A stretch of 64,000 nt of DNA from Gluconobacter morbifer G707 (GTDB taxonomy: Bacteria; Pseudomonadota; Alphaproteobacteria; Acetobacterales; Acetobacteraceae). The notes beneath the pieces are model-generated. The model was not told the DNA's origin, ran no database searches, and saw nothing but the letters and a program-made list of their open reading frames with translations. Shown piece by piece: positions 10,466-44,092 of the stretch. The DNA is taken from NCBI RefSeq assembly GCF_000234355.1, contig NZ_AGQV01000001.1:1-64000 (forward strand). The letters run 5' to 3'. Every line of letters begins with the position of its first letter. Position 1 is the first letter of the stretch. A program made the translations under genes and the position numbers.

Positions 10466-11026
10466 TCAGTTGGCAGTTTTCCGGGGCGTGAGCGTGAAGT
10501 CCAGCTGATAGTCGGACTGGTCCCGGGACCGTCTCTGCTGGAGGACGTGAAGATCAGGATCCTGCGGAAGCAGGCAGTTCACGAGCCACACGGTTTCAGG
10601 GCCTGCGCCGCGATTGGTATAGGTCAGGCGGTTGGGGCCGTTCTGCAGGGGAGCCTGGATCGTGAACCGGAGGTCCAGAACGCCTGTACCGCCTCGGATT
10701 GCAGTTGGCGGGGGAAAGGTGGCGGATTCCAGCGTCAGGAAGAGCGGTTTTCCGTTCAGGGACGCTGAAAGGTTTCGGGTCATGCGGGTGATGTAGGCGT
10801 GCTGTTCGGCGGACGACAGAATTCCGTCACTGTTGATATCAATCTGCCGGATGATGCCCTCGGCGACATCCACGCCCGGGGTAAGACGCAGGTGCAGGGC
10901 GATATGATCCCGTGAGAGGCCAATCGTCGTGGCCTGAAGGTATTCGTCCAGCCGATGGGCTGAAGCGGCTGCGGGCAGGAGCAGCAGAGCCGACGCAGCG
11001 AGACATGCGTAATGGGCCATGCTCAC
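10466..11026 (-). CDS. Secreted EF-hand protein of unknown function
   Basis: 186 aa with a signal peptide (hydrophobic stretch ending AASAHRLDEY) and one EF-hand-like calcium loop DINSDGILSSAE around residues 63-74. The rest looks like a beta-rich extracytoplasmic domain (AHRLDEYLQATTIGLS, then TYTNRGAGPETVWLVN), a type also found ahead of HupE/UreJ-like membrane domains; no such membrane part is present. The start ATG overlaps the stop of the DUF3500 gene (ATGA), so the two are coupled. Function unknown; the linkage suggests a shared periplasmic role. Confidence 0.65.
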   Translation of the reverse strand: MSMAHYACLAASALLLLPAAASAHRLDEYLQATTIGLSRDHIALHLRLTPGVDVAEGIIRQIDINSDGILSSAEQHAYITRMTRNLSASLNGKPLFLTLESATFPPPTAIRGGTGVLDLRFTIQAPLQNGPNRLTYTNRGAGPETVWLVNCLLPQDPDLHVLQQRRSRDQSDYQLDFTLTPRKTAN

Positions 11027-12216
11027 TGGGCCGTAAACCGGCTGCCATAGCTGTTGGTCGGGTCACGATAGACCGTGTGGACATGCAGGGTAGGATCACC
11101 GCCGACCCCCTGGGGGGAGAATTCGATCAGCAGGCGCGGCCCCTGGATGCGGTAGTAGGACGAGCCGTTGCGGTTGGGTTCATGGGTGGTCGGGCCGCTC
11201 CAGGCGAACCATGTGTCGTTCAGCCCTTCGCGGATTTCCCTGAGGCGCGGAGCAGCGTAGGCGTCGTTTATGATGCCGGCCCATTCGCCGATCACGTCCA
11301 TGAGCATGTCCTTCTGGGTAGCGGTCAGGGCTGATCCCTTTATGCCTTCGGGGACAATGGTTTCCCCATCATGTCCAGGCCCCTGAACGAGATCGTCCAC
11401 GGTGTAGGGCAGGATAGCCTGCTGGCGCTGCTGCGGATCCAAGGCCTTCAGAAGCACAAAGGCCTTGTCGTTTTCGCCGGCCAGAACGCGGATGGTCTTG
11501 CCATCCCTCTGGAAGATGGCGGGCTGGGCTCCGGTCAGGGTGGGTGTCATGACGCCGTGCGGGCCGTCGATGACGAGGTTCAGACCCAGATGATGGCCGC
11601 CGAACTGTACCATCCACGGGTCTGTTTCAGACGGCTCGCCGAAGATGGCGATGGTATAGACGGCTTTTCCGGACGCGAAGTTGGTCTCACCATCCGCAAG
11701 AACCTGGTCGGCCCCCATGATGTCCTGCACTTTCTGGTAACCCCTGTAGCTCAGGAGGGTTTGCAGGAGGTGAAAGGCCGCAGAACGCTGGGGCGCGGTC
11801 AGCTGACCCATCTGAAGGCCAGGACGCGGTACGTCGCTGACGGGGAAGTTGGACCAGATGGAGGTGCCGTACCGTTCGCCGATGAAGCCGCCCGGCGGTC
11901 CCATGCCAGGGCCGCGTTTTGTCGGAGCGGCAGGCTCGGAGTCCGTGGCCGGGACCGCCGGCTGGCCCGGTGCGCTTCTGCGGAAGCGGGCGAGCGTAGC
12001 GGATTTTTGTGCAACAAAAGGAAACTGTACCTTCGCAAGGCTCTGTGAATCGAAGGTTGCCAGAAAAGAGCGGGCGGCGGTGACGGCAACACGGGTCTGG
12101 TTTGCGGGCATGGTTTCTCCTGACGTCGATACTGCCCGGGATGGCGGAGTATTCGCTGCAATGGCGGGAGAAACAGCCAAAAAAAGGCCTCCCACCATCC
12201 AGAATCTGTTCTTCAT
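11023..12216 (-). CDS. DUF3500 domain protein, exported
   Basis: About 397 aa. A signal peptide (KNRFWMVGGLFLAVSPAIAA) is followed by a DUF3500 domain that fills the protein. Typical stretches are FGGHHLGLNLVIDG in the middle and WFAWSG, YYRIQGPRLLIEF and HVHTVYRDPTN near the end. The start at 12216 is preferred over 12282 because the signal peptide begins there and AGGGCGGA lies just before it. DUF3500 proteins have no established activity; conserved His and acidic residues hint at a metal site. It is the first gene of a three-gene operon and divergent from the tannase-family esterase, whose promoter region it shares. Confidence 0.8.
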   Translation of the reverse strand: MKNRFWMVGGLFLAVSPAIAANTPPSRAVSTSGETMPANQTRVAVTAARSFLATFDSQSLAKVQFPFVAQKSATLARFRRSAPGQPAVPATDSEPAAPTKRGPGMGPPGGFIGERYGTSIWSNFPVSDVPRPGLQMGQLTAPQRSAAFHLLQTLLSYRGYQKVQDIMGADQVLADGETNFASGKAVYTIAIFGEPSETDPWMVQFGGHHLGLNLVIDGPHGVMTPTLTGAQPAIFQRDGKTIRVLAGENDKAFVLLKALDPQQRQQAILPYTVDDLVQGPGHDGETIVPEGIKGSALTATQKDMLMDVIGEWAGIINDAYAAPRLREIREGLNDTWFAWSGPTTHEPNRNGSSYYRIQGPRLLIEFSPQGVGGDPTLHVHTVYRDPTNSYGSRFTAQ

Positions 12217-12420
12217 TCCGCCCTGTCCCCGTGGTGTTTTTCGCCGAACCGCATTCCTTTCCATGACGCGGGACTGAAACACTGCATGGCCTCGGTGGAG
12301 CGATCAAGGCTTTACCTTTCCAAGTGTTATGCGTTCAGACTGCGGGACGCCGTCATGGGTGGCAAAGATATGGCATTTGCCGGCATGATCATGCCACTGG
12401 AAGAAAAACCGAGGATCCAC

Positions 12421-14028
12421 ATGCCGTTTCTGAAGCCTCGTCGCCTTCGCTCCGTACAGCCGTCTCGCCAGCTTATGGCGACATTTGCTGCCGGGGCATT
12501 TCTGCTGACCTCAGCACCGCTGTTCCTGTCCACACAGGCTCATGCGACCGGTTGTGCGGATCTGGCGCGCCTGGCGCTTCCGGATGCGACCTTTACCAAG
12601 GTTGAAACAGTGGAAGCCGGGGCGTGGCACAGTCCGCAGACACATCTGAGCCGGATCATGACGGCACCGGGCATGAATCTTGCGGGGCATCCGGCTCAGG
12701 GGGCCAATCTTGCGTTCTGTCGTGTTGCCGTGACACTGCATCCGTCTTCGGATTCAGTGATCCGGACGGAGATCTGGCTGCCGCTGCGTGGCTGGAATGG
12801 CAAATTGCTCGGGGTTGGCAATTTCGGGTGGGCGGGCTCGATCATGTATGACGGCATGGTGACAGGCGTGGGTGAGGGCTATGCCGTCGCGAGTACGGAT
12901 ACGGGCCATGACAGTTCCACGTCGGAGGGGCAGGGTGGACGCTTTACGCTGGGTCATCCGGAAAAGCTGGTCGATTATGCCTACAGGGCCGATCATCTGA
13001 TGACGGTCACGGCGAAGCAGCTTGCGCACCGGTTTTATGGGAAGGATGCATCCCATGCCTACTGGATCGGATGTTCTCTGGGGGGGCTGGAAGGGCTGAT
13101 CGAGGCCAAACGCTATCCTGATGATTATGACGGGATTGTCGCCGGTGCGCCGCCCAATCCGATTGTCAATTTCAACGGAGAGCAGCTCTGGGCTGGCTGG
13201 ATGAGCTATCATGATCCGGCGCTGCGTGTGGGCCGGGAGAAGTTTCAGCTTCTGAACCGTGCGGTCATGAAGGCCTGTGCCTCTCCTGTCGGGAAAAGCC
13301 AGGGGTTTCTTGATGAGCCGGACCGGTGCGGGTTCGAGCCCCGGCAGCTTCTGTGCAAGGGGGAGGAGACAGCGGACTGTCTGACGGCCAATGAAGTCAG
13401 GGCGGCTGAGCTGATCTATCGCGGACCGGTCAATCCCGGAACGGGCAGGGTTATCTTCCCGGGACCGGCGAAAGGCAGCGAGGACGGGTTTTCAGCGGAT
13501 GGGAAGGCATTTCCCGTTGCGCTTGATCTCTTCAAATATGCGGCTTTCCAGAACCCCGAGTGGGACTGGACCACGCTAGACTGGCAGACGGATATCGCCA
13601 GTGCGACCAGTAGGCTGGGGCCGCTTCTGCATGTGGATGACAATCTGGAGCCATTCTTCCGGCATGGCGGGCGGCTTCTGATGTATATCGGCTGGAATGA
13701 CGGCCATAACCCGCAGGAACTGGCTGGTTATTATCAGGCACTCATGGAGCATGCCGGCCCCGGAGAGCGGAACTCTGCACGTCTCATCGAGATCCCGGGC
13801 ATGGGGCACTGCTATGGCGGGGCAGGCTGTGACACGTTCAACAAGCTGGGAGCGATCGATGACTGGGTCGTGCGCCAGCAGGCCCCGGAAAAGATCGTGG
13901 CGTCCCGGGTTTCAGACGGGAACATCGTCCGGACACGGCCGCTCTGTGCATGGCCGAAGGTTGCCCGGTACGATGGTCAGGGCGATCAAAACAGAGCGGC
14001 CAGCTTTGCCTGTGTTATGCCGGAGTAA
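12421..14028 (+). CDS. Tannase/feruloyl esterase family protein
   Basis: 535 aa, exported (signal peptide ending near THAHATG-like sequence, read here as QAHATG). It belongs to the tannase/feruloyl esterase alpha/beta-hydrolase family. The nucleophile elbow is GCSLGG, with the Cys next to the catalytic Ser. The acid lies in YIGWNDGHN and the catalytic His in GMGHCYGGAGCD. The paired Cys of GCS and GHC are the CS-D-HC disulfide signature of the family. The start at 12421 is selected because GAGG lies six bases upstream; frame sequence back to 12286 looks unlike coding. It would cleave ester bonds of plant phenolics such as gallate or hydroxycinnamate esters in the periplasm or outside. The neighbouring divergent DHA2 exporter could remove phenolic acids; that link is an inference. 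Confidence 0.85.
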   Translation: MPFLKPRRLRSVQPSRQLMATFAAGAFLLTSAPLFLSTQAHATGCADLARLALPDATFTKVETVEAGAWHSPQTHLSRIMTAPGMNLAGHPAQGANLAFCRVAVTLHPSSDSVIRTEIWLPLRGWNGKLLGVGNFGWAGSIMYDGMVTGVGEGYAVASTDTGHDSSTSEGQGGRFTLGHPEKLVDYAYRADHLMTVTAKQLAHRFYGKDASHAYWIGCSLGGLEGLIEAKRYPDDYDGIVAGAPPNPIVNFNGEQLWAGWMSYHDPALRVGREKFQLLNRAVMKACASPVGKSQGFLDEPDRCGFEPRQLLCKGEETADCLTANEVRAAELIYRGPVNPGTGRVIFPGPAKGSEDGFSADGKAFPVALDLFKYAAFQNPEWDWTTLDWQTDIASATSRLGPLLHVDDNLEPFFRHGGRLLMYIGWNDGHNPQELAGYYQALMEHAGPGERNSARLIEIPGMGHCYGGAGCDTFNKLGAIDDWVVRQQAPEKIVASRVSDGNIVRTRPLCAWPKVARYDGQGDQNRAASFACVMPE

Positions 14029-14428: not shown

Positions 14429-15790
14429 TCAGGATGACTCGCTGAGACGCTGGATCCGCATGGCTTCCGTCCTGTGAGCCCCAAGAATTTCCTTGAGGTT
14501 TGTCAGGACTGGCTGACCGTTTTCCACGAGGATCCTGCCATCCACGATGGTTGTCCCCGCGGTAGCGGGCGCGCAGCGGAGCCATGCTTCCACAGGGTCC
14601 GTCAGAGCACCCGCAAGGGAAATGTCCGACATCTGCCAGATGACAAGATCCGCGCAGGCGCCCGGTCTCAGATGGCCAATCTCGTCGTCCCATCCCAGAC
14701 AGGCGGCTCCGCCCCGGGTTGCCATGTCCAGCGCGTCCCGGGCCGTCATTGAATGTGGGCCGTTCCGGTAGCGCCCCAGTAGAAGCGCCATGCGCGTTTC
14801 CAGCCAGAGAGAGGCGTGATCGGTGGAGGCTGATCCGTCGCAGCCAAGCCCGACAGGCATTCCCCTGCGGCGCATGTCCATGGCGTCAGCCGAACCGCCG
14901 CCGATCATCATGTTCGAGCACGGGCATTGCGCCGTGCAGACACCTGCATGGGCCAGACGATCGATTTCATCGGAGGAAGGGTAGATGTAGTGTGCGACCC
15001 ATGAGCGCGGACTGGCCCAGCCCACACGCTCGAAATATTCCGTTGGCCTGCATCCATAGACTTCCGCGCAGTAGCGGTCCTCATCGTGGTCTTCCGCCAG
15101 ATGGGTGTGAAGGCGAAGATCATATCTGTCAGCCATGATGGCGGATTCCGTCATGATCCGTTCCGAGACGCTGAACAGAGAACAGGGCGCCAGCGCAACC
15201 CGTCCCATCGCACCGGGTGACGGGTCATGATAGGCCTGCACCAGACGTTCGCTGTCCGCCAGGATGGTGTCTTCGTCCTGAACCACGGAGGCCGGAGGCA
15301 GGCCGCCATCCTTCACGGACCGGGTCATGGAGCCGCGGGTGGCATAAAACCGGAAGCCGATCTCCCTTGCCGCCCTGAATTGCGCGTCGATCAGGAAGGG
15401 TCTGGGATGGACGTACATATGATCCATCGAGGTGGTGCAGCCGCCCATCAGCAGTTCGATCATGGCGACGGCCGTGGAAAGATAGACAGATTCCTCATCC
15501 AGTCCGGCCCAGAGGGGATAAAGCCCCTGTAGCCATTCAAACAGCGTCCCGTTCGTGATGGGGGCATAGGCGCGGGTGAGGTTCTGATACATGTGATGAT
15601 GGGCGTTGATCAGGCCCGGCGTCACCAGCCGGCCTTCGGCGGATATGGTTTTCTCCGCCCGGGGCATGTCTTCTCCGGAATGGCCGACAGCATGAACGCG
15701 CCCATCCCTGATGGCGATCCAGCCGTTTGCAATTTCATGATTCCTGTCGATGTAGAGATACGCGTTCGTAATAAGGAGGCTGACCGTCAT
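14429..15790 (-). CDS. 8-oxoguanine deaminase (amidohydrolase)
   Basis: 453 aa of the ATZ/TRZ-type amidohydrolase superfamily. Metal site residues include HHHMYQNLTRAY after PGLIN, LHTHLAED (second His cluster), the His in AHYIYP, and the Asp in GLGCDGSASTDH. The HMYQNLTRAYAP segment and overall length fit 8-oxoguanine deaminases, which convert 8-oxoguanine to urate plus ammonia. The start at 15790 follows GGGAAAGGG; the upstream extension to 15835 looks unlike coding. It lies 150 bases downstream of a CDA-fold deaminase and belongs to a purine cluster with guanine deaminase and a purine-type ABC importer. Isoxanthopterin or another oxopurine is an alternative substrate. Confidence 0.8.
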   Translation of the reverse strand: MTVSLLITNAYLYIDRNHEIANGWIAIRDGRVHAVGHSGEDMPRAEKTISAEGRLVTPGLINAHHHMYQNLTRAYAPITNGTLFEWLQGLYPLWAGLDEESVYLSTAVAMIELLMGGCTTSMDHMYVHPRPFLIDAQFRAAREIGFRFYATRGSMTRSVKDGGLPPASVVQDEDTILADSERLVQAYHDPSPGAMGRVALAPCSLFSVSERIMTESAIMADRYDLRLHTHLAEDHDEDRYCAEVYGCRPTEYFERVGWASPRSWVAHYIYPSSDEIDRLAHAGVCTAQCPCSNMMIGGGSADAMDMRRRGMPVGLGCDGSASTDHASLWLETRMALLLGRYRNGPHSMTARDALDMATRGGAACLGWDDEIGHLRPGACADLVIWQMSDISLAGALTDPVEAWLRCAPATAGTTIVDGRILVENGQPVLTNLKEILGAHRTEAMRIQRLSESS

Positions 15791-15941
15791 TGCGGTGCCC
15801 TTTCCCGATACCATCAGCCAGCCATGACGGATCACGACTTTCGCGGAAGGCCCTGTTCCGGAGGCGCGAACTCCGGATCGTCATCAAAGCGGCTTTGAAC
15901 GGGCGAGGAAGTTTCAGCCTATCATCAGGGCAGGAGACATG

Positions 15942-16436
15942 TCACGGGGGCCGGTCCGCCCAGAATTTTGCCTGCAGGGCGGCAGCTTCCTCTTCCAGAA
16001 GGGGGCCTGTGACGACAACCGCCTGCTGTCCGGCTGCGAAAACCGTTCGACAGGGCAGATCCAGCGTCGGGTTTTCGGCGTGCTGACCTGTCATGACCTT
16101 GAGGCTTTTTTCGGACTGGCCATACACCACCCGTCCAATTCCGGACCAGTAGATGGCTCCCGCGCACATCGCACAGGGTTCGGCTGAACTGTAGAGCCTA
16201 CAGTGCCGCAGATATCCGGCGCCGTATGTCCGGCTGGCCCGGCCTGCAAGAAGACGCTCCGCATGCGCGGTCATGTCATGACCTTCAGCGCTGTAGCCGT
16301 TGCCCTGTTCCATCAGCACCGTTCCATCCGCATCGACCAGCAGGGCGCCAAAAGGGTGATCGCCCCCATCGCGGGCCCTACGGGCCACGTCAAAGGCCAT
16401 GCGAAGGAAACGATTGTCGTCGTTTTCGGTCGTCAT
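15942..16436 (-). CDS. CDA-fold nucleobase deaminase (guanine/tRNA deaminase-like)
   Basis: 164 aa of the cytidine/deoxycytidylate deaminase fold. It has the zinc site HAERLL (HAE motif, about residues 54-59) and SSAEPCAMCAG (PCxxC motif). The N-terminal FLRMAFDVARRARDGGDHPF resembles small GuaD-type guanine deaminases and nucleoside deaminases, rather than TadA itself. The start at 16436 overlaps the stop of the amidohydrolase guanine deaminase gene (ATGA). Two unrelated folds, both able to act on guanine, are therefore translated together. One of them probably has a different purine or pterin substrate. Confidence 0.8.
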   Translation of the reverse strand: MTTENDDNRFLRMAFDVARRARDGGDHPFGALLVDADGTVLMEQGNGYSAEGHDMTAHAERLLAGRASRTYGAGYLRHCRLYSSAEPCAMCAGAIYWSGIGRVVYGQSEKSLKVMTGQHAENPTLDLPCRTVFAAGQQAVVVTGPLLEEEAAALQAKFWADRPP

Positions 16437-17779
16437 GTAATGGAGGCCTGAGCTTTGACGGGAACGCCATTGACCCAGACGCGGCCAATGGTCTGCGGAG
16501 AAGCGTGACAGACGATTTTCTCGGCGCATATTGTTGCGCTGTCCTGCGGGTGCAGGCGCAGGGCGCCAGCGGTTCCAAGAATTTCAATGGCATCGAACAT
16601 CTGTCCAACCTTTAACTGCCCGGCGGGCAGGCCCAGAGCTTCCGCGCCGCCACGGGTGGCCAGCCAGAACGCTTCCTGAAAATCGATCCGGTGATCTGGC
16701 AGGCCGCGCCGTTCAGTGGGCAGGGCAGGGTCTGTTCCGCTTTCCAGAAGGCGGGAGGTCAAGACGGCCTGTCGGGCATTTTCGAATATGGAAGGAGAAT
16801 ATCCGCCGGAAATATCCGTTCCTAGGCCGCAATGGACATGCTCGTCCAGAACAGCCCGCACGGGAAGGGCAGCTCCTGCGAAAAAAGCATTGGAAATCGG
16901 GCAGTGCGCCAGCGCGGCGTTTCGCTCCCTCACCAGTGTCCGGTCATCCCGGTTCAGAAAGCCCGCATGGGCCAGAACGGTATGGGAGCGCAGGAGACCG
17001 AAGGCATCCAATGCGCATGTGTCTGTCTGCCCGGTCCGGTCCAGAACATGCTGATGCTCCCAGTCACTTTCGGAGGCATGTGTCTGAACCCTGACATCCA
17101 GTTCGGCGGCAAGCTGTCCCAGCCCGCGCAGAAGCGTATCGGAACAGGCCGGAATGAAGCGGGGCGTAATCACCGGCTGAACCAGACCGTTTTCATTGCC
17201 CGGAAGGGCGCGGACGGCGTGAATGAAGCGGCGTGTCGCATTCAATGCGTCATCGGCGCTGGCCTGCCTATACCCGGGAGGACAGAGATCCGGGTGATCC
17301 ATGGCCACCAGCCCGACAAGGCCGCGCTGACCGTGGCGGAGGCAGGTCCGGGCAAGGGCGAGGCTGGCCTCTTCGTGGATCGTGGCAAAGTAAAGGGCGG
17401 TTGCCGTGCCGTTCTCCAGAAGTGTCCGGATAAGATCGTCATATACCGCTTCGGCAAAGGCCAGATCGGCATAGCGGGCCTCCAGCGGGAAGGTACAGGC
17501 GCCGAGCCATTCTTCCAGAGGCCGGTCGAGAGCCGTCCCGGCCTGCGGCCACTGGGGGGCATGGATATGCAGATCCGTGACGCCGGGGATCAGGAGGGTT
17601 CCCGGGCGCAGGGACACCACCCTGTCACGGGCGCACAACGCGCGGTGCAGCGGTGTCCCCGCCGCTGCACGTTCCTGGATGAGGCCATCCGGCCCGATCA
17701 GGAACGCCACGTTTTCCAGACTGGTCTGTCGGGATGTTTCCGGGCTCAGGACATGTCCCGTGACGACGGTGCCATTCAT
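16433..17779 (-). CDS. guaD: Guanine deaminase (amidohydrolase type)
   Basis: 448 aa. The metal motif PGVTDLHIHAPQWP is the typical guanine deaminase form of HxH. Further ligands occur in VQTHASES, VLAHAGF and GLGTDISGGYSPS. GuaD deaminates guanine to xanthine with zinc in the cytoplasm. The length fits the family. Its ATG overlaps the stop of the upstream oxygenase gene (ATGA) and its stop overlaps the next deaminase, so the three genes are tightly coupled. Linking an oxygenase directly to guanine deaminase suggests that the oxygenase product is guanine or a close analogue. Confidence 0.88.
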   Translation of the reverse strand: MNGTVVTGHVLSPETSRQTSLENVAFLIGPDGLIQERAAAGTPLHRALCARDRVVSLRPGTLLIPGVTDLHIHAPQWPQAGTALDRPLEEWLGACTFPLEARYADLAFAEAVYDDLIRTLLENGTATALYFATIHEEASLALARTCLRHGQRGLVGLVAMDHPDLCPPGYRQASADDALNATRRFIHAVRALPGNENGLVQPVITPRFIPACSDTLLRGLGQLAAELDVRVQTHASESDWEHQHVLDRTGQTDTCALDAFGLLRSHTVLAHAGFLNRDDRTLVRERNAALAHCPISNAFFAGAALPVRAVLDEHVHCGLGTDISGGYSPSIFENARQAVLTSRLLESGTDPALPTERRGLPDHRIDFQEAFWLATRGGAEALGLPAGQLKVGQMFDAIEILGTAGALRLHPQDSATICAEKIVCHASPQTIGRVWVNGVPVKAQASIT

Positions 17780-18615
17780 GCCAGCGCGCCGTAGGTCACG
17801 CCTTTTCCCTTGAGCCAGCGACGATAGGCCACGGAGGAGCGGTCCGCCATCGTGGGGATTTCATATTTGCCGTCCAGTGGCATGAGACGAGGGCGCTGGT
17901 TCTCCAGAATGATCCTGTCCTGGAGGAAAATGAACTGCTGGAACTCCACCAGTCCTGCCTGCGGGGACGTTTCGTCAACAAGGAACATGACCGGATGGGC
18001 GCGTGACCGTGTCGGTGTCATGGGCTGGACGAAGAGCGCGATGACGTCCTGCCGTCCGGGAGCAGCGGGGCACGTCTTGTAGAGCAGGGTCGAGAAAGGA
18101 GCCGCGACCCGGTAAATATAGTCGGTCAGGATGCCGCCGGCTGCGGACAGGGCGGCCTGGGGCTGAAAGAAGGTGCAGTCTGTCGCCCAGATTTCCTCTC
18201 CGTTGTCGCGTGTTTCGATCTGATAGCGGCGGACTTCTGTTTCAGGTTCGGCTCCGAGAATATTGGTATGAACGAAGGGGAAATGCGCCATGTCGAGGAA
18301 ATTCTCCACGACGCGCAGCCCGGAGGCATGTACCGCGATGGAACCACAGCAGACCAGCCGCCGGTCCTCTTCATCCGCCTCCGGAATGGCTGCGATGTCC
18401 CGCACCGGCTCGCCCAGCGACGTCCAGAGATAACCGTATTGCTCCCGGACCGGCAGGGACCGGTTCCCGCACAGGATCTGGAAACTTCCCATGTCATCGC
18501 GCGAGACGTTGATCAGCCTGTCCAGCAGCATGGTCTGAAAGACAGGTGCTGTCAGATCTTCCAGCATGGCCAGAGGATACCATTGTGATAACGTTTCCCG
18601 GTCGATGGACGTCAT
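17776..18615 (-). CDS. Rieske-oxygenase catalytic subunit lacking the Rieske cluster (NdmC-like)
   Basis: 279 aa. The mononuclear iron site of a Rieske non-haem oxygenase is present: NFLDMAHFPFVH, giving N105, D108, H111 and H116 (bridging Asp and two His). The N-terminus still resembles the edges of a Rieske domain (QWYPLA at 11-16, then PVREQYGYLWTSLG at about 55-68), but the middle with both CxH and CxxH motifs is gone; only an isolated Cys near 49 remains. It therefore cannot carry a 2Fe-2S cluster. This matches NdmC, the caffeine-pathway N7-demethylase subunit of Pseudomonas, which is similarly short and takes electrons from a Rieske domain on another protein. A free-standing Rieske protein is encoded divergently at 18958. 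The start could also be 18660; 18615 leaves more room for the divergent promoters. Substrate is probably a purine, from context. Confidence 0.8.
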   Translation of the reverse strand: MTSIDRETLSQWYPLAMLEDLTAPVFQTMLLDRLINVSRDDMGSFQILCGNRSLPVREQYGYLWTSLGEPVRDIAAIPEADEEDRRLVCCGSIAVHASGLRVVENFLDMAHFPFVHTNILGAEPETEVRRYQIETRDNGEEIWATDCTFFQPQAALSAAGGILTDYIYRVAAPFSTLLYKTCPAAPGRQDVIALFVQPMTPTRSRAHPVMFLVDETSPQAGLVEFQQFIFLQDRIILENQRPRLMPLDGKYEIPTMADRSSVAYRRWLKGKGVTYGALA

Positions 18616-18681
18616 GGTGTGGACCCTGCTGCTGCTGACGGCTGGTCCCGAGTTAATCATGCCGTCCCGCTCGGAGGAAAC

Positions 18682-18729
18682 ATGAAATATAAAAAATTCT
18701 TATTGTGTAATGAGATAGGAAGGGCATGA
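18682..18729 (+). CDS. Possible 15-residue leader peptide
   Basis: A tiny open frame, MKYKKFLLCNEIGRA, with an excellent ribosome site (GGAGG at 18673-18677, five bases before the ATG). It ends at 18729, four bases before the next gene starts. It lies in the divergent promoter region of the oxygenase genes, in locally AT-rich sequence. It could be a regulatory leader or a chance occurrence; no comparative evidence is available here. Confidence 0.3.
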   Translation: MKYKKFLLCNEIGRA

Positions 18730-18733
18730 TTGA

Positions 18734-18961
18734 ATGGTCCGGGAGATTCGCCTCGAAGGGCATTTTGATCCCGAACGGTTGCGGGCCTTTGCAATGGCGC
18801 GGGCCCGGCTTCTGGCCATAGAGATTACAGAGATGTCCGTTTCACAAACCCGTTTCACAGCCCGGATAGAGGGAGAGGACGTATTGCTCGGTATGTTTGA
18901 AATGGCCTGTCTTCTTGGTCCATCCGGTTGTCTCGTGACGCATGTGGAGACCTGTGCGTGA
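18734..18961 (+). CDS. Small conserved-looking protein preceding the Rieske gene
   Basis: 75 aa, with AGGAAGGG nine bases upstream of its ATG. It contains LEGHFDPERLRAFAMARARL and ends EMACLLGPSGCLVTHVET. It has no signal peptide, membrane segment or metal motif. The size and pattern (alternating strands and two helices) are loosely reminiscent of a ferredoxin-like/acylphosphatase fold, but the acylphosphatase active-site Arg/Asn pattern is not evident. Its stop overlaps the GTG start of the Rieske gene (GTGA), so the proteins are made together. It may be an assembly or electron-transfer accessory of the oxygenase. I do not recognise the family. Confidence 0.6.
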   Translation: MVREIRLEGHFDPERLRAFAMARARLLAIEITEMSVSQTRFTARIEGEDVLLGMFEMACLLGPSGCLVTHVETCA

Positions 18962-19569
18962 CGGACTGGTTTCCGCTGGCGCTGTGCGTGGATGTCCCTT
19001 CCGGAACGGCCGCTCCCGCCCGTCTGCGTGGAGCGGAGATTGCGCTCTGGCGGGGCCCGGATGGACAGATCCACGCCTGGGAGGATCGTTGCCCGCATCG
19101 CGGCATGAGGCTGAGTTTCGGTTTCGTGAGGGATGGCAATCTGGCCTGTCTTTATCATGGCTGGCAGTTCGGCGCAGACGCGGCCTGCCGTCATATTCCG
19201 GCACATCCCGAACTGCGCGTCCCCGGAACGATCCGGGCAACGGCCTATAAGGTGGAAGAGCGCGCCGGGATGGTCTGGGTGTCCCTGGACGGGGATGCGG
19301 ATGCGGCGGAACTGCCGGACCAATCAGGGTTCGGGGCCAGAAGCCTTCTGGTGCAGGTTCCCGTGGACGTGGTCCGTGCAAGGCTGGAACTGCCGGAAAA
19401 GGGCTGGATCTGGCGGGATGGGGCTCTTGTCGCGGTGCATGAGTCGGAAGCCGGACTGACCATGCTTCATCTGGCAGCCGGAAATCTGGCGGACCGGAAT
19501 GAGATTGCACGCCGGGCCAAAACACTCAGGGACAGTCTTGAAGCGCGTTATGAAAGGGTTTGTGCATGA
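18958..19569 (+). CDS. Free-standing Rieske [2Fe-2S] protein with extra C-terminal domain
   Basis: 203 aa. A complete Rieske cluster site is present: C45-P-H47-RG and C64-LY-H67-GW, in the ring-hydroxylating oxygenase style (CPHRG...YHGW). The first about 105 residues form the Rieske domain. The remaining about 95 (from FGARSLLVQVPVDVVRARLE) do not include an iron-binding catalytic domain and I cannot assign them. The start is GTG at 18958, with GGAG eight bases upstream and a 4-base overlap with the 75-aa gene. The protein most likely supplies the 2Fe-2S centre missing from the divergent catalytic subunit at 17776-18615. No flavin/ferredoxin reductase gene lies in the cluster, so electrons must come from elsewhere. 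Confidence 0.82.
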   Translation: MTDWFPLALCVDVPSGTAAPARLRGAEIALWRGPDGQIHAWEDRCPHRGMRLSFGFVRDGNLACLYHGWQFGADAACRHIPAHPELRVPGTIRATAYKVEERAGMVWVSLDGDADAAELPDQSGFGARSLLVQVPVDVVRARLELPEKGWIWRDGALVAVHESEAGLTMLHLAAGNLADRNEIARRAKTLRDSLEARYERVCA

Positions 19570-20126
19570 GACTGCGGGACTGGGCTCTTGATGACAGGTG
19601 TTATGCCGTTCGTCTGGGGGCGTCCCTCATGGGCGTACCGCTCCCGACGGTGACCGATGCCGCGGCTCTGGAAACAGGGCCGGTTCTCGAAACGGATGGC
19701 AGCCTGCTTCATGGCCCGGTGAACATCTTGCAAAGGCTGACCAGTCTCCCTGACGTCGCGCGTGACTGGCATCTCCGGCTGGGGGAAGAGCAGCGGGACG
19801 TCTGGATGGGGAACGTGCTGGAGCGTTTTTCGTCCCTCCGCCGGGCATCGTTGCTGGCGGCGCTCCCGATGGAAAAGGCCTCTGCCCCGGTGCTGGATCT
19901 GATGTGCGAAATCGAGGATCGCCTGTTCGACGATCACCTGCGGGACCGTCCCTGGCTGTCCGGTGAGCATCCCGGCGTCGCCGACGTCCTGCTGTTCCCC
20001 GTTGCCGCGCTCAGTCAGGATCTTGAAGTCCCGCTGGACCTCTACCCGGCCATTCGTCATTTCCTCCGGCGGTTCAGGGCCCTGCCGGGCTTTCTGACGA
20101 TGCCGGGAGTGCCGGAATGTCATTGA
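19566..20126 (+). CDS. GST-like protein (possible NdmE-type oxygenase accessory)
   Basis: 186 aa. The C-terminal part has a glutathione S-transferase helical domain look: DDHLRDRPWLSGEHPGVADV resembles the N-capping and hydrophobic staple motif of GSTs, and the end YPAIRHFLRRFRALPGF is the typical last helix. The N-terminus (WALDDRCYAVRLGASLMGVP) resembles the start of the thioredoxin-like domain but is shortened. It overlaps the Rieske gene (ATGA), and AAAGGG lies seven bases before its start. In the Pseudomonas caffeine pathway a GST homologue, NdmE, is required structurally for the NdmC/NdmD N7-demethylase. The same trio of cluster-less catalytic subunit, separate Rieske domain and GST homologue occurs here. 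Confidence 0.7.
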   Translation: MRLRDWALDDRCYAVRLGASLMGVPLPTVTDAAALETGPVLETDGSLLHGPVNILQRLTSLPDVARDWHLRLGEEQRDVWMGNVLERFSSLRRASLLAALPMEKASAPVLDLMCEIEDRLFDDHLRDRPWLSGEHPGVADVLLFPVAALSQDLEVPLDLYPAIRHFLRRFRALPGFLTMPGVPECH

Positions 20127-21220
20127 GGCGCCCGCTGTCTCTCTCTCGGCGTGCGGCACTGACGACACTGGGAAGCGCCCTGCTGCTTCCGTCCGCGCTC
20201 AAGGCTTCGGCACGCCGGTTTGCCCCCATCCGGGAAGAAGATCTCCTGATCGGCTTCGGACATACCAGCCCCATCACGGATGGGGGCTGGAGTTACGCGC
20301 ATAATCAGGGCGTGGAAGCCATGAAGCGCGCATACCCGAAGGTCAGAACGCTTTTTGTCGAGAATGTCTCGTATTCCGCCGATGCCACACGCATTTTCCG
20401 CCAGTTCGTGGCGGAGGGCGCGCAGATGGTGATTTCCACATCCAATTATGGAGATTTCATCCGCGATGTCGCAGAACGGGCGCCCGATGTCGCGTTCATG
20501 GAATGTGACGGACACGCGGTCAGCGGCAATCTGGGATGGTATTACATCACGCACTGGTATGCGAGTTACGTGATCGGCGTGGCTGCCGCCCGCCTGAGTA
20601 AAACCGGAAAACTCGGCTATGTGGCGTCGTTTCCCATGCCGTCTGTTTATGCGAGCGCCAACGCCGTGCTCATGGGGGCGAGATCGGTCAATCCCGAAGC
20701 CACCATGCGCGTCATCGCCATCAATTCTTGGTTTGACCCGCAGGCCGCGACCGAAGCAGGGTCCGCGCTCGTGGACAGTGGATGTGACTTCCTGTGCGGG
20801 ATCATGGACGATCCGGGATATCTGCGCGTGGCGGAAAAACGGGGCGTCTGGGCCGCGATGTGGAACACGGACATGCGGGCCTTCGGACCCAGGGCTTATG
20901 TCAGCTCCGTCATGCTCGATTTCGCCGGTTACTACACCGAACAGATCGGAGCGCGGATCAGGGGTGAATGGATGCCGGAGGGCCGTTTCCTGACGCTGGG
21001 GCATGGCGTGGACCGTGACCGCTGGGGCGAAAATGTGCCGGAGGCCGTGCAGAAGGAAGCAGATGCCGTCCGGAACCGGATGCTGGGCGGATGGTCACCG
21101 TTCCAGGGGCCAATCCATGATTCCAGTGGCAGGCTGCGTGTTCCGGCCGGTCATGTCATGACCGACATGGAGATGTACGGCTGGACATGGCAGGTGCAGG
21201 GAGTATCCGGACTTGGTTGA
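20117..21220 (+). CDS. BMP-family ABC substrate-binding protein, purine/nucleoside type
   Basis: 367 aa with an Arg-rich N-terminus and hydrophobic stretch (RRAALTTLGSALLLPSALKA) that acts as an export signal, possibly Tat. The body is of the BMP/Med family of basic membrane lipoproteins: GFGHTSPITDGGWSYAHNQG in the first lobe, VISTSNYGDF and GKLGYVASFPMP further on. BMP proteins bind nucleosides or nucleobases. No lipobox Cys is seen, so it may be a free periplasmic protein. It overlaps the GST-like gene by ten bases and precedes the ATPase and two permeases of the same importer. Confidence 0.85.
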   Translation: MSLRRPLSLSRRAALTTLGSALLLPSALKASARRFAPIREEDLLIGFGHTSPITDGGWSYAHNQGVEAMKRAYPKVRTLFVENVSYSADATRIFRQFVAEGAQMVISTSNYGDFIRDVAERAPDVAFMECDGHAVSGNLGWYYITHWYASYVIGVAAARLSKTGKLGYVASFPMPSVYASANAVLMGARSVNPEATMRVIAINSWFDPQAATEAGSALVDSGCDFLCGIMDDPGYLRVAEKRGVWAAMWNTDMRAFGPRAYVSSVMLDFAGYYTEQIGARIRGEWMPEGRFLTLGHGVDRDRWGENVPEAVQKEADAVRNRMLGGWSPFQGPIHDSSGRLRVPAGHVMTDMEMYGWTWQVQGVSGLG

Positions 21221-22796
21221 CAGAGTACCTGCCTGCCCGCCGCCCCGTCACCTGCCACCCGGTACGCCGCCCCTTCTGGAGCTGCTGAACATCGGGAAGT
21301 ACTTTCCCGGCGTCATCGCCAACGAGCATGTGTCCCTGACCGTGTTTCCGGGGGAAATCCATGCGCTGCTCGGGGAAAACGGCGCCGGGAAATCCACTTT
21401 GATGAATGTGGTCACGGGGCTGTACCAGCCCGATGCCGGTGAGATCATCATGGACGGATATGGCGTGACCTTTCCCGCGCCGGATGCAGCCATCGCCGCC
21501 GGGATCGGCATGGTGCACCAGCATTTCCGGCTGGTGCCGCGCTTCACGGTGGCGGAAAACCTGCATCTGGGCTGGTCCGAAACGCCGAAACGGCTTTCCG
21601 CGAAGGACATTGACGCCCGCGCCGCGGCCTTGGCCAAGAGGTTCGGCCTGCCGGTGCGTGCGTCCGCCATCGTCTCCACGCTTTCGGCGGGTGAGCAACA
21701 GCGCGTGGAAATCCTGCGCGTCCTGTCACGGGGCGCGCGCCTGCTGATCCTGGACGAACCGACCGCCGTGTTGAGCCCCGTGGAAGTCGGGGAACTGTTC
21801 GCAGCCCTGCGGCGGTTCCGTTCCGAAGGCGGTGCCGTCATCATCATCAGTCACAAGCTCGACGAGATCATGGCGCTGGCGGACCGCGTGTCCGTGCTGC
21901 GTCAGGGGCGGCTGACGGGGACGCATCTGGTGTCCGATGTGACGCCGGACAGCCTCGTGACGGAAATGATCGGGCGTTCCGTCGCGCTGGCGACGTCCTA
22001 TCCCCGCCAGACAGACCTGCCGGCAGGGGGCGGGGTTGCACCCCTGTCGCTTGAACGGGTGACGGTCCGCGATGAGGCGGGCGTCGTGCGGCTGGAAGAC
22101 ATCACACTGTCCCTTCACCCGGGCGAGGTTCTTGGGATCGCGGGGGTGACGGGAAATGGACAGCCCGAACTGGCCGAGGTGCTGACGGGACTGATAGGAC
22201 CGGAAAGCGGCACCGTCTTCCTGAACGGCCGGGCAGTCAGGCGCGCCGATCCGGCACTGTTTGCCCATGCGGGTATCGGGCACGTCCCGGAGGATCGTCT
22301 CAGGAGAGCGCTGATGCCGGCAATGAGCGTCGCGGAGAACATGGCGCTGCGGGAATATGACCGGCCCCCGATCGGAGGGCGGTTTACGTTCTCCATGGCG
22401 CAGGCCCGGAAATTCGCGCAGGCCCTGGCCGACCGGGCCGGAGTCAGGTTGCCGGGAACGCAGGTTCAGATCCGGGGGCTGTCCGGGGGGAACCAGCAGC
22501 GTCTGGTTCTGGAGCGGGAAATCCGGATTGCCAGTCGTGTGCTGGTCGCGGGATATCCGAGCCGTGGTCTCGATATCGGCGCCATTTCCGCCATGCGTGA
22601 CATGCTGGCCCGTGCCCGGGACGCAGGCGTAGCCGTTGTCCTGATGTCCGAGGATCTGGATGAAATCTTCGCCCTAAGCGACAGGATCGCGGTTCTGTAT
22701 GACGGGCGTCTCATGGGAGTCATGGCGCGTGATGCCGCAGACCGGGACCATATTGGCGCGCTCATGAGCGGCCGCAGCCTGCCGGAAGTCGCATGA
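21213..22796 (+). CDS. ABC importer ATPase, two fused nucleotide-binding domains
   Basis: 527 aa with two ABC ATPase domains in tandem, as in sugar and nucleoside (NupO/YufO-like) importers. The first has GENGAGKST and LSAGEQQRVEILR, with Walker B LLILDEPTAVL. The second has GVTGNGQPE instead of a full Walker A, and LSGGNQQRLVLER, a common degenerate second site in this class. The start is probably TTG at 21213, with GGGAG upstream, overlapping the stop of the binding-protein gene. It powers the BMP-type importer together with the permeases that follow. Confidence 0.87.
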   Translation: MVDRVPACPPPRHLPPGTPPLLELLNIGKYFPGVIANEHVSLTVFPGEIHALLGENGAGKSTLMNVVTGLYQPDAGEIIMDGYGVTFPAPDAAIAAGIGMVHQHFRLVPRFTVAENLHLGWSETPKRLSAKDIDARAAALAKRFGLPVRASAIVSTLSAGEQQRVEILRVLSRGARLLILDEPTAVLSPVEVGELFAALRRFRSEGGAVIIISHKLDEIMALADRVSVLRQGRLTGTHLVSDVTPDSLVTEMIGRSVALATSYPRQTDLPAGGGVAPLSLERVTVRDEAGVVRLEDITLSLHPGEVLGIAGVTGNGQPELAEVLTGLIGPESGTVFLNGRAVRRADPALFAHAGIGHVPEDRLRRALMPAMSVAENMALREYDRPPIGGRFTFSMAQARKFAQALADRAGVRLPGTQVQIRGLSGGNQQRLVLEREIRIASRVLVAGYPSRGLDIGAISAMRDMLARARDAGVAVVLMSEDLDEIFALSDRIAVLYDGRLMGVMARDAADRDHIGALMSGRSLPEVA

Positions 22797-23839
22797 GCGC
22801 GCTTTCTCCCCGCACGCGCCTGACGGTTGTGCCGCCCCACCGGATTGCCGTGGGACGGTGCCTGTCCATTCTTGTCGCTCTCGGGATCGTCGCGCTGACG
22901 CTGGCGCTCATGGGGCGATCTCCGGTCGAACTGGCCGGTCTGGTGCTGCGCTCCACGATCGGTTCGCGGTTCGGGCTTGAGGATCTGGCCCTGTTCATGA
23001 CGCCCCTGATGCTGACCGGAGCCGCGGTCTGGGTCGGAATCCGCGTCAACCTGTGGAATATCGGTGCGGAAGGGCAGTTTTATGCCGGAGCCACAGCCGC
23101 AACGGCCATCGGCCTGTTCACGCACTGGCCAGCTTTCATCGCCCTGCCGGTCATGGTGGGCGCGGGCGCGTTGGCGGGGGCGGGCTGGATTTTTGTCCCG
23201 GCGGCGGCGCGGGCATGGCTGGACGTGAGTGAAATCGTCACGTCCCTCCTGCTCAATTTCGTGGCTGCCCTGGTGGTGTCCTATCTCGCAACGGGCCCAT
23301 GGGCGGATCATGTCACCGGCGCGCTGGTTTCCACCGAACGGCTCCGTGTGGGCCTGCCGGAACTCTGGGGCGTGGTTCATCTTGGCTTCCCTCTGGCGCT
23401 GGTCGTTGTCGCTGGTCTGGGGATCGGGCTGGCCAGAAGCCGCTTCGGGTATGAAACCGCAGTCTGTGGTTCCAATCCGCAGGCCGCGCATTACGCCGGG
23501 ATCGGTGTGGCGCCCCGTATTCTGGCTGTTCTGCTGCTATCCGGGGCGCTGGCCGGTCTGGCCGGGGTTTTCGAAGTCGCGGGAACGGTCCATCGGCTTC
23601 AGGGCAGTCTGGCCAACAATTACGGCTATCTGGGCATCGTGGTGGCGCTTCTGGCGCGTGAATCATGTCTGGCCCTGATCCCCGCGGCGCTCCTGATGGC
23701 CCTTATTCTCGATACGGGCATCGTTCTGCAAACCACCCAGATCAGTTCTTCGGCCGTCCTCGCGATTACCGGCCTTCTCGTGCTGGCCATCGCGGCGGGT
23801 GACGAACTGGCGGCTTATGTCCGTGTGAACAGGACCTGA
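22793..23839 (+). CDS. ABC importer permease 1 (nucleoside/purine, NupP-like)
   Basis: 348 aa, about eight to nine membrane helices, of the BPD_transp_2 family. VNLWNIGAEGQFYAGA and the EAA-like loop GSNPQAAHYAGIGV are typical of nucleoside importer permeases (YufP/NupP). Its ATG overlaps the ATPase stop (ATGA). It pairs with the permease at 23842. Confidence 0.87.
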   Translation: MSALSPRTRLTVVPPHRIAVGRCLSILVALGIVALTLALMGRSPVELAGLVLRSTIGSRFGLEDLALFMTPLMLTGAAVWVGIRVNLWNIGAEGQFYAGATAATAIGLFTHWPAFIALPVMVGAGALAGAGWIFVPAAARAWLDVSEIVTSLLLNFVAALVVSYLATGPWADHVTGALVSTERLRVGLPELWGVVHLGFPLALVVVAGLGIGLARSRFGYETAVCGSNPQAAHYAGIGVAPRILAVLLLSGALAGLAGVFEVAGTVHRLQGSLANNYGYLGIVVALLARESCLALIPAALLMALILDTGIVLQTTQISSSAVLAITGLLVLAIAAGDELAAYVRVNRT

Positions 23840-23841: not shown

Positions 23842-24777
23842 ATGGCGCTTCTCAGTGATCTTCTTGGACATGCGGTGCTGTCCGGCGGCGTTCTGGCGCT
23901 TGGTGCTCTGGGGGAGGTGATTGCCGAACGCGCCGGTGTTCTCGATCTCGGCGTTGAAGGACTGATGTCCTTGGGCGCGGTCGTTGCAGTCATGACCATG
24001 AAGGCCACGCCGCATCCCTGGCTCGGGCTTCTGGCCGCCGGTCTCGTCGGAGGGCTGGGGGCCGGCGTGCTCGTGCTGTCCAGCGTGGTGCTCCGCGCCA
24101 GTCAGGTTCTGTCGGGCGTGGCCTTGACCTTTCTGGGGCTTGGCGTCAGTGCCGTCATCGGGCGGTCTGTCGCCGGTATCCCCGTTTCCGCCGTGTTCGA
24201 ACCCGTCTCCATTCCCGTCCTGTCCGCCATTCCGGTGATCGGCCCTGCCTTCTTCAATCAGAATGTCCTTGTTTACCTCATCTATTTCGTTCTTCCCGTT
24301 CTGGCGCATTTCTGGCTGTTCCGGACACGGGCAGGGCTGGATCTGCGGGCGGTGGGGGAAAACCCGGCGGCGGCGGACGCGGTTGGCGTGCCTGTCATGA
24401 AGCTGAGAGCGCTGGCCGTTATTGTCGGGGGCGTTCTGGCAGGATTTGCCGGAGCGGATCTGACACTGGCGGTGGTGCCGGTCTGGTCTGACGGCATGGT
24501 CGCCGGGCGGGGTTGGATTGCGGTGGCGCTCGTCATTTTCGCAGGCTACCGGCCGATTGTCGCAGTGCTTTCCGGCCTGCTCTTCGGTCTGGTCACGGCT
24601 GTCGGGTTCATGGGGCAGGCCCGGGGATGGCCGGTCTCGCCCGCCATTCTCAATACACTGCCCTATTTGGGAACAGTGGGCTGCATCATCGTTCCCATGC
24701 TGGCCTTTGCGAAACTCCGCTCAGCCATGGCCGCTCCCGCAGCCCTCGGCACACCATATTATCGCAGCGGGCGATAG
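23842..24777 (+). CDS. ABC importer permease 2 (nucleoside/purine, NupQ-like)
   Basis: 311 aa, eight to nine membrane helices, of the same family as the preceding permease but of the YufQ/NupQ type: AERAGVLDLGVEGLMSLGAV near the N-terminus and RAVGENPAAADAVGVPV in the coupling loop. It starts two bases after the previous stop. It is the last gene of the oxygenase/importer operon, which runs from 18734 to 24777 almost without gaps. Confidence 0.87.
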   Translation: MALLSDLLGHAVLSGGVLALGALGEVIAERAGVLDLGVEGLMSLGAVVAVMTMKATPHPWLGLLAAGLVGGLGAGVLVLSSVVLRASQVLSGVALTFLGLGVSAVIGRSVAGIPVSAVFEPVSIPVLSAIPVIGPAFFNQNVLVYLIYFVLPVLAHFWLFRTRAGLDLRAVGENPAAADAVGVPVMKLRALAVIVGGVLAGFAGADLTLAVVPVWSDGMVAGRGWIAVALVIFAGYRPIVAVLSGLLFGLVTAVGFMGQARGWPVSPAILNTLPYLGTVGCIIVPMLAFAKLRSAMAAPAALGTPYYRSGR

Positions 24778-25039: not shown

Positions 25040-26122
25040 TTAACGAAGGGCCTGCGTTTCCCGGATCAGGGCATGGATGAAAGCAAGTTTCGCCCGGACG
25101 CCCGCGGTCAGCACGAAGGGGTAGAAATCCGCCAGGCCCATGGAGCGATTGAGGCTGTTGACGGCTGAAGTGAGCGGAACCCAGGCTGCCATGAGCTCGT
25201 CGAAGGTGGATGTCAGATACGGGTCCTTTCCCGGACCGTCCGAGGACAGGGGCGTAGCGCCAGGGATGCCGGGATGAATCGTGAGGCCAAAGGCCCAGGC
25301 TGTTTCCAGCGTGGAGACGATGTGAAGGTAATGGGCCCAGGTTTCCGCAAAATCTTCCCAGGGGTGGGAGGTCGCGTAGCTGCTGACGTAATGTTCGCGC
25401 CAGCCTTCGGGCGGAGGACTGTTGTAGTGGTGTTTCAGGGCGTCCTGATAATCCTGACTGTCATCTCCAAACACGGCGCGGCAACTGTCCAGCCGGCCAC
25501 CGTCCCGGATCAGGACATTCCAGTAATAATGGCCGATCTCATGGCGGAAATGCCCGAGGAGCGTGCGGTAACGTTCCCCCATTTCCAGGCGCATCCGTTC
25601 ACGTTCGGCATCATCGGCCTCCCGGATGGCAAGCGTGATCAGGCCATTGTCATGGCCTGTCATGACAGGAGCCGAGCCATCGGGAGCATCATCGAGAAAA
25701 TCGAAGGCCAGTCCGTTTTCGGGATCTTCCTGCCAACTCCGGATCGGGAGCTTGAGGCGGATCAGCGTGTAGAACAGACGATGTTTCGCGACTTCGATTT
25801 TCTGCCAGCGTTCGAGGTTTTTCGGAGTTCCGAGATTCGGAATGGTACGGTTGAAACGGCAGGCGAAACAGAATGCAGGATTGCCCGTCTGGCTTGGGGT
25901 CGTCAGCCAGTTGCAGGCGTCATAGTTATGATTTGAGCAATATATGAGTTCCGCGTTCCGCACCTGCGGCTCTAGGGGATGCCAGCAGCCCTGTCCTGCA
26001 GGCTCCAGCGCGGTCAGTTCCGACAGGCCCGGGAGATAGCCAACGGCATGATGGCAGTTCTCACAGGACGTGTTCTCGAAATACAGAGCCTGCTGACAGC
26101 ACTGACAGGAGAAAAGTTTCAC
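25040..26122 (-). CDS. Putative zinc-binding metallopeptidase with N-terminal zinc ribbon (DUF2248-like)
   Basis: 360 aa. The N-terminus has paired Cys (FSCQCCQQAL, SCENCHHAVGY), with further Cys in YCSNHNYDACNW and FCFACRFNRT, forming zinc-ribbon-like knuckles. The catalytic motif HFRHEIGHYYW is an HExxH zincin site, and ETWAHYLHI downstream may supply a third ligand. There is no signal peptide, so it acts in the cytoplasm. This family is often found near ATP-grasp/alpha-E genes, which here start at 26641 in the opposite direction. The substrate is unknown. Confidence 0.8.
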   Translation of the reverse strand: MKLFSCQCCQQALYFENTSCENCHHAVGYLPGLSELTALEPAGQGCWHPLEPQVRNAELIYCSNHNYDACNWLTTPSQTGNPAFCFACRFNRTIPNLGTPKNLERWQKIEVAKHRLFYTLIRLKLPIRSWQEDPENGLAFDFLDDAPDGSAPVMTGHDNGLITLAIREADDAERERMRLEMGERYRTLLGHFRHEIGHYYWNVLIRDGGRLDSCRAVFGDDSQDYQDALKHHYNSPPPEGWREHYVSSYATSHPWEDFAETWAHYLHIVSTLETAWAFGLTIHPGIPGATPLSSDGPGKDPYLTSTFDELMAAWVPLTSAVNSLNRSMGLADFYPFVLTAGVRAKLAFIHALIRETQALR

Positions 26123-41754: not shown

Positions 41755-41770
41755 TCCGTCCCCCTGATGT

Positions 41771-41806
41771 GGCCTGATCCTGCTTTCCGGAAAGCAGGAT
41801 CAGGCC
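41771..41806. terminator. Perfect 18-base palindrome between receptor and GH20 genes
   Basis: Bases 41771-41788 and 41789-41806 are exact inverted repeats with no loop, a very stable hairpin or cruciform. A T-run (tcttttta) follows ten bases later. It could act as a partial terminator that sets receptor against hexosaminidase expression, or stabilise the receptor mRNA 3' end. Confidence 0.6.
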
Positions 41807-41857
41807 CTGACGTCTTTTTAGAAATTCAGCCTGATTCAGATAAAAGGAAGTCCTTTC

Positions 41858-44088: not shown

Positions 44089-44092
44089 ACGG

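Follow-up and report, generated by a model that had tools for sequence, protein, structure and literature searches.

The first 64,000 nt of contig NZ_AGQV01000001.1 from Gluconobacter morbifer G707 (the window) contain a locus for a split Rieske oxygenase, in which separate genes encode the catalytic subunit (CAT), the Rieske protein (RSK) and a GST homologue, close to genes for an importer and purine-type deaminases. The favoured interpretation, with a probability of about 0.5, is that importer and oxygenase act on a purine base, that the oxygenase subunits arose by reciprocal decay, and that the reaction is likeliest the N-demethylation of a methylated purine. The purine context of the locus is supported. 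The locus is a conserved and widespread variant of NdmCDE, the N7-demethylase of Pseudomonas putida CBB5 that acts on 7-methylxanthine and is the final enzyme in caffeine degradation; the free Rieske subunit, an additional acylphosphatase-like protein (ACP) and the context of purine deaminases and importer are new. Gene set, ligands, clade and context are read from sequence, and the reciprocal decay is read from predicted structures.

Gene set and conserved ligands

A sequence-only reading of the window had proposed a catalytic subunit without 2Fe-2S ligands, a separate Rieske protein and a GST homologue after it, and the three genes are confirmed (Table 1). CAT has D108, H111 and H116 and shows no Rieske match; D233 is by homology the third Fe ligand and completes the Fe site. 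RSK has the full Rieske site of C45, H47, C64 and H67 (Pfam Rieske match, E 9.1e-22), its start being assumed to be the GTG at 18958. The GST homologue matches Pfam GST C-terminal models only.

A CAT profile scan of species genomes found at least 533 confirmed relatives. Counts of loci given here refer to the best 80 by CAT similarity, a non-random set mainly from Acetobacteraceae, Rhizobiales and Rhodobacterales, with score thresholds for gene presence set by the analyst. The four CAT ligands are invariant in 51 of 51 aligned CATs (window and 50 of the 80 loci), and the four cluster ligands in 65 of 65 aligned RSKs (window and 64 of the 74 loci with an RSK reading of at most 240 aa); other sequences were omitted for length, near-identity or brevity. 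RSK and GST genes are each present in 80/80 loci. A chance neighbourhood of the trio is ruled out, because the trio recurs in all of these loci.

The trio stands but is not the whole set. The ACP open reading frame (ORF), overlooked in the earlier reading, is joined by a GTGA overlap to RSK directly downstream and has homologues in 72/80 loci. The 8-oxoguanine-deaminase-type gene and the CDA-fold deaminase gene behind the guanine deaminase gene were overlooked as well. The ORF map and family matches bear out that guanine deaminase is coupled to CAT and that a BMP-type importer is on the Rieske side. The divergent arrangement is correct for the window, where two divergent gene rows flank positions 18616–18733 and the plus-strand frames overlap or nearly touch up to position 24777, but it is not the general layout. 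Gene order is variable, often divergent, and RSK, CAT and GST are in a single row in 17/80 loci. The best named locus, from Gluconobacter japonicus, has the same gene order and a CAT that is 89% identical.

Proposed reciprocal decay of CAT and RSK

In its predicted structure, CAT corresponds to a complete oxygenase alpha subunit from which the part that binds the cluster is missing. The prediction for RSK likewise corresponds to a complete alpha subunit, the catalytic domain being shrunken and devoid of Fe ligands. The Rieske domain is indeed not fused to a reductase, as had been proposed, but the structural model indicates a decayed whole subunit and not just a free domain. Of the 203 residues of the RSK model, 199–201 align to alpha subunits that are complete, and the alignment reaches far into the catalytic domain; the chain ends at position 289 in SxtT, 298 in NdmA and 307 in dicamba monooxygenase. 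The Rieske non-heme iron oxygenase alpha fold (Rieske plus helix-grip) is found in the predicted CAT and RSK pair, with each half degenerate. The predicted structures indicate that CAT and RSK are two reciprocally decayed alpha subunits. NdmC and NdmD share this split, and the reading would reinterpret that pair as well. This model-based structural reading is new here. The two proteins would descend from one ordinary alpha subunit through complementary losses. In CAT the active site with its iron would have been retained and the part for [2Fe-2S] binding lost, and RSK would have kept the cluster and lost the iron site together with much of the catalytic domain.

Two results weigh against reciprocal decay. 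The match of the RSK C-terminus to the CAT profile is weak, with an HH probability of 12–26% depending on settings, and the RSK C-terminus has no match to a profile of intact oxygenases (P 0.8). Both would be expected if RSK were simply a Rieske ferredoxin used by several oxygenases, with a C-terminal tail of unrelated origin. This reading is improbable in view of the near full-length alignment of the RSK model to complete alpha subunits, and of the profile score, which was reached by 0 of 200 column shuffles.

ACP and the GST homologue

An ACP profile of 68 rows (window and 67 of the 72 ACP loci, the rest omitted for length, near-identity or brevity) finds solved acylphosphatases, with a best E of 2.9e-5. 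ACP resembles acylphosphatase in this profile match and differs in the loss of the catalytic Arg and Asn. With the columns mapped by the analyst from the match to solved acylphosphatases, the catalytic Arg column has R in 7 of 68 rows, and the eight most frequent letters of the Asn column do not include Asn. The missing pair rules out ACP as a catalytically active acylphosphatase; a structural or assembly subunit is probable. The ACP gene is usually just before RSK, although in one locus (L110) it is found after GST on the opposite strand.

The GST of the window has a 15-column gap relative to its relatives within the N-terminal GST domain. Gluconobacter and Asaia GSTs have lost part of this domain, which binds glutathione in other GSTs. 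The loss is in line with the non-catalytic role given for NdmE in passages of two papers (PMC8055839, PMC9830774).

Kinship with NdmCDE

For comparison, a genuine ndm cluster on P. putida MT178 plasmid NZ_CP143525 was used (L041), the NdmA of which matches the solved NdmA with E 1.1e-229. CAT is identical to its NdmC at 122/281 positions (43%), RSK to the N-terminal part of its NdmD at 52/155, and the GST homologue to its NdmE at 68/216. Phylogenetic trees were made from hand-picked rows (45 for CAT, 42 and 40 for the other two; 112 columns in the Rieske tree). In each of the three trees the respective Ndm protein (NdmC, NdmD or NdmE) groups with L013 and L014, two Acetobacteraceae loci that carry importer genes and a free Rieske gene (support 90/90, 99/95 and 94/73, respectively). 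NdmCDE therefore belongs to a larger family of split oxygenases. The clustering of CAT with unrelated oxygenases had been named beforehand as the result that would speak against kinship; CAT is in the same clade as NdmC. The alignments and trees thus support the proposal that the trio mirrors NdmCDE, as far as kinship with NdmC and NdmE is concerned.

In the CAT tree, the split subunits including NdmC are set against HpxD-like enzymes, NdmA and NdmB with a support of 98/98, on a tree with flagged long branches. Within the NdmC group (90/90), the free-Rieske L013 and L014 are together with Sinorhizobium CATs (99/95). In the Rieske tree NdmD is one clade (100/98) among the free RSKs, beside L013 and L014. 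The Rieske tree suggests that the reductase fusion of NdmD may be derived, while on CAT a single clade of all free-Rieske CATs is compatible with an approximately unbiased (AU) test (p 0.066). Long branches (L098_CAT2 and outgroups) weaken both of these trees. In the GST tree the outgroup is not on one side of any branch, and the group of NdmE with L013 and L014 has a long unrelated GST among them.

A comparison of Fe-site segments shows that CAT is identical to NdmC at 55/82 positions and to HpxD at 25/81, the segments having been picked after the alignment was viewed. This favours an NdmC-like chemistry. The changes in the NdmA "QL" structures (N to Q and F to L) map onto Q226 and F230 of CAT. 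NdmC has Q/F at these columns like CAT, NdmB has Q/L and HpxD has N/F. Q226 is retained in 49/51 aligned CATs, and the exceptions at this column are in split paralogues, i.e., E in the L036_CAT2 group, M in L044_CAT1 and Y in L098_CAT2. Outside these paralogues, the aligned sequences of the compared purine oxygenases have in common a polar amide at this column. This supports a purine-like substrate and does not distinguish between demethylation and ring hydroxylation.

The CAT paralogue with E226 (L036:1159-2028(-), L122, L124) adjoins genes of the xanthine dehydrogenase (XDH) type and also an amidohydrolase gene. In L124 the XDH-type genes are PucC/PucD-like and the amidohydrolase gene is ammeline/SAH-deaminase-like. 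A single RSK, GST and ACP set seems to serve both CATs of L036.

Gene neighbourhood among relatives

A BMP gene is found in 62/80 loci, and BMP together with the ATPase in 60/80. At least one purine-type deaminase is present in 57/80. The types are guanine (32 loci), adenine (29), 8-oxoguanine (OXOD, 21), a second 8-oxoguanine-like type (OXOD3, 13), SAH/ammeline (11) and CDA-fold (5), the deaminase labels and the function of HpxD being taken from model or record names and not from papers. XDH genes adjoin in 2/80. Gluconobacter has guanine-type, CDA-fold and 8-oxoguanine-type deaminases, Asaia is without the guanine type, and in many rhizobia the guanine type is paired with an adenine type. 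Where present, the deaminases point to an aminopurine. In Acetobacter locus L102, and in the same cluster in L103, a gene for an isochorismatase-family hydrolase (Pfam; 4413-4988(+)) precedes the BMP gene.

Purine catabolism of the host

The host has XDH genes approximately 6 kb beyond the window (xdhA 635.7 bits, xdhB 1304 bits, both above cut-off). Genes for a xanthine permease, OHCU decarboxylase and the allantoinase PuuE are on another contig. Among 120 Acetobacteraceae genomes, OHCU decarboxylase is present in 9/9 with a split CAT (E <1e-60) compared with 36/111 others (Fisher, 8e-5). Among 289 members of the class, it is found in 5/6 genomes with CAT (E <1e-40) versus 63/283 (P 0.003), and the lone miss is a 64% complete genome. 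Both tests include genome G000 and count related genomes as independent.

PF20256, taken as an XDH proxy although the family includes other Mo enzymes, is present at E<=1e-90 in 8/9 Acetobacteraceae genomes with a split CAT and in 0/6 with an HpxD-like match only (four of these six were confirmed as HpxD-like in the tree). Genome G045 has a 31% match of undetermined kind and a strong PF20256 match. A role of CAT as a replacement of XDH was considered and rejected: the host has XDH, and it is the HpxD-like enzymes that go with a lack of XDH. In G054, from the same genus, an HpxD-like oxygenase gene is located about 1.6 kb from OHCU decarboxylase (C303:81611-84341); this genome has neither a split CAT nor PF20256.

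Proposed reaction and alternatives

We infer the complex, the electron donor, the substrate and the reaction as follows. By analogy with the reported NdmC3D3E3, the assembly would be CAT3-RSK3-GST3, with ACP as an extra small subunit; helper proteins would hold the CAT and RSK halves together. Electrons would probably take a general ferredoxin route: NAD(P)H would reduce a ferredoxin by way of a general ferredoxin reductase, the ferredoxin would reduce the RSK cluster, and the electrons would then cross between the subunits to the iron of CAT, where O2 would be activated. The likeliest reaction would be an oxidative N-demethylation, with 7-methylguanine or a methylxanthine as the best guess for the substrate; with 7-methylguanine or 7-methylxanthine it would release formaldehyde and leave guanine or xanthine. 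Guanine would then be turned into xanthine, and 8-oxoguanine into urate, by the coupled deaminases, and the host XDH and urate route would finish the degradation.

Several observations weigh against this proposal. The substrate guess is based on how the neighbouring genes are named, and several of these genes fall below the cut-offs of their models. In 23/80 loci, several on short contigs, there is no purine-type deaminase within the fetched flanks; these include all eight Komagataeibacter, Gluconacetobacter and Acetobacter loci, which are near the window in the CAT tree. Formaldehyde genes are nearly absent, with FghA-like genes in 0/80 and FrmA-like genes in 3/80 relative loci, the window itself not having been searched in this way. 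No dedicated reductase is near the trio, as NdmD-reductase-like and HpxE-like genes are each found in 0/80 loci. The host genome has two PF00175 matches only, neither with a Rieske part, which from the analyst's reading of the sequences are a flavohaemoprotein and a ferredoxin reductase, along with five PF00111 matches, including one in XDH.

The scarcity of formaldehyde genes would fit a different reaction, in which the same split complex hydroxylates purine C8 without molybdenum, as HpxDE is annotated to do. The route would be guanine to 8-oxoguanine to urate by way of the neighbouring 8-oxoguanine-deaminase-type enzyme, or xanthine to urate. Genes of this deaminase type are in the window and in 34/80 loci (OXOD and OXOD3 combined; with 362 bits, an OXOD3 example falls short of the cut-off of 532), and a related purine oxygenase, HpxD, has N at the column of Q226. 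The Fe-site segments, on the other hand, are like those of NdmC and not of HpxD, and in Acetobacteraceae it is the intact HpxD-like enzyme, not the split one, that goes with the absence of a strong XDH match. C8 hydroxylation is considered rather unlikely.

The substrate may also be another purine-like or fused heterocycle taken up by way of BMP, such as a pterin, a cytokinin or N6- or N1-methyladenine, with substrates that differ between paralogues. The adenine-deaminase-like and SAH/ammeline-deaminase-like genes of other loci (best-model names, under cut-off) would agree with this, as would the E226 paralogue beside PucC/PucD-type XDH and the best solved relative, SxtT, which acts on saxitoxin-type alkaloids. 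The coupled enzymes of the window are of the guanine type, however, and Q226 is nearly constant among the aligned CATs. This possibility is judged unlikely. N-demethylation of a methylated purine is retained as the favoured reaction.

Significance

If true, the reciprocal-decay model would explain the insolubility of NdmC alone and the 3:3:3 stoichiometry, and would identify the stretch of NdmD between Rieske and reductase. The subunits described here are free and smaller, and available for structural work, and ACP is a previously unrecognised conserved component. The locus may represent a breakdown route for methylated guanine that feeds modified guanine into normal purine degradation. A broader proposal, which is doubtful, is that there is a whole Rieske oxygenase class of a reciprocally decayed alpha pair with a GST-like and a pseudo-acylphosphatase subunit, ancestral to NdmCDE through a fusion of the decayed Rieske subunit to a reductase, whose native role in Alphaproteobacteria of plants, soil and sea is to break down modified guanine (7-methylguanine) derived from the turnover of nucleic acids. 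In the open-licence literature, the combination of split oxygenase, ACP, deaminases and importer was not found described, no bacterial oxygenase for methylated guanine breakdown was found, and there was nothing useful on hpxD, on guanine deaminase with Rieske or on acylphosphatase with Rieske oxygenase.

Gene coordinates and flanking genes

Table 1. Features of the split oxygenase locus, with positions in the window
Feature	Position	Strand	Remarks
8-oxoguanine-deaminase-type amidohydrolase	14429..15835	-	NF006055, 556 bits, above cut-off of 532; start uncertain
CDA-fold (TadA/GuaD-like) nucleobase deaminase	15942..16529	-	PF00383, E 7.6e-22; start uncertain
Guanine deaminase, amidohydrolase type	16433..17779	-	ATGA overlap with CAT; best model TIGR02967, 349.5 bits, below cut-off of 375.4
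CAT, catalytic subunit of split Rieske oxygenase	17776..18615	-	279 aa; D108/H111/H116/D233; N-terminal vestigial Rieske domain
Intergenic region separating divergent operons	18616..18733	.	From ORF map; presumably a shared promoter/operator, regulation inferred
ACP, acylphosphatase-like	18734..18961	+	75 aa; without catalytic Arg/Asn pair; conserved fourth component
RSK, free Rieske protein	18958..19569	+	203 aa; C45/H47/C64/H67; shrunken catalytic-domain remnant, approximately 115-203
GST homologue (NdmE-like)	19566..20126	+	Reduced N-terminal domain; presumably structural
BMP/PnrA-type substrate-binding protein of ABC importer	20117..21220	+	PF02608, E 1.4e-31
ABC importer ATPase	21213..22796	+	PF00005; best model NF047930, below cut-off
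ABC importer permease 1	22793..23839	+	NF047929, 133 bits, below cut-off
ABC importer permease 2	23842..24777	+	Homology to annotated permeases; same operon in L036, L037 and L044

Directly after the importer operon is a gene for a Zinc-ribbon/Peptidase_Mx protein (25040-26122(-)), homologues of which are approximately 3.5–6.6 kb from CAT in 11 close rhizobial loci. It is followed by a gene pair for a circularly permuted ATP-grasp protein and an alpha-E protein (26641-29156(+); names from the L045 annotation). The pair recurs beside the trio operon of Agrobacterium plasmid pAtCFBP7129a (L045), and there is an ATP-grasp match in L115. On the other side, genes for a tannase/feruloyl esterase (12286-14028(+)) and a DUF3500 protein (11023-12282(-)) are next to each other; no tannase match was found in the relative loci. 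Positions 39325-47271 encode a TonB receptor, a GH20 hexosaminidase, an amidohydrolase and an MFS transporter, and look like a locus for amino-sugar use.

Comparison with known systems

No solved relatives are closer to CAT and RSK in sequence than SxtT and SxtDIOX (GxtA), which also rank with the closest in fold. They differ as intact two-domain subunits of saxitoxin biosynthesis, and in the alignment they have D at column 226 and a gap at column 230. Saxitoxin-type alkaloids have a purine-like skeleton. HpxDE of Klebsiella, annotated as a Mo-independent xanthine hydroxylase, is similar in being a purine-acting Rieske oxygenase with an amide at the same active-site column, but HpxD is an intact alpha subunit with 66/222 identity in the catalytic part and is in a separate tree group. 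The split subunits, with HpxE-like genes in none of the 80 loci, do not represent an HpxDE-type system of intact alpha subunit and HpxE reductase.

The ndmCDE-like clusters of Sinorhizobium pSymA (L044, L047) share the BMP importer, NdmD-type and NdmE-type genes and CAT-like subunits. They differ in the fusion of Rieske to reductase, in the presence of two CATs in S. meliloti and in having no ACP match. A passage of PMC4408171 mentions that Sinorhizobium and Mesorhizobium have homologues of ndmCDE whose function is unknown.

NdmCDE itself is treated as unique among Rieske oxygenases, with an unsolved architecture, in passages of PMC4408171 and PMC13237722. It has in common with the window locus a cluster-less catalytic subunit, a Rieske domain supplied in trans and a GST homologue, and the MT178 plasmid copies of NdmC, the NdmD Rieske domain and NdmE fall with the CAT, RSK and GST groups. 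In NdmD a reductase of the FMN/NADH kind, which includes a plant-type ferredoxin domain, is fused to the Rieske part, whereas RSK is free. NdmCDE has flanking frmA/frmB, which are nearly absent from the relative loci, and L041 has a purine permease that was not found in these loci. Additions in the window locus are ACP and, together with purine deaminases, a BMP importer.

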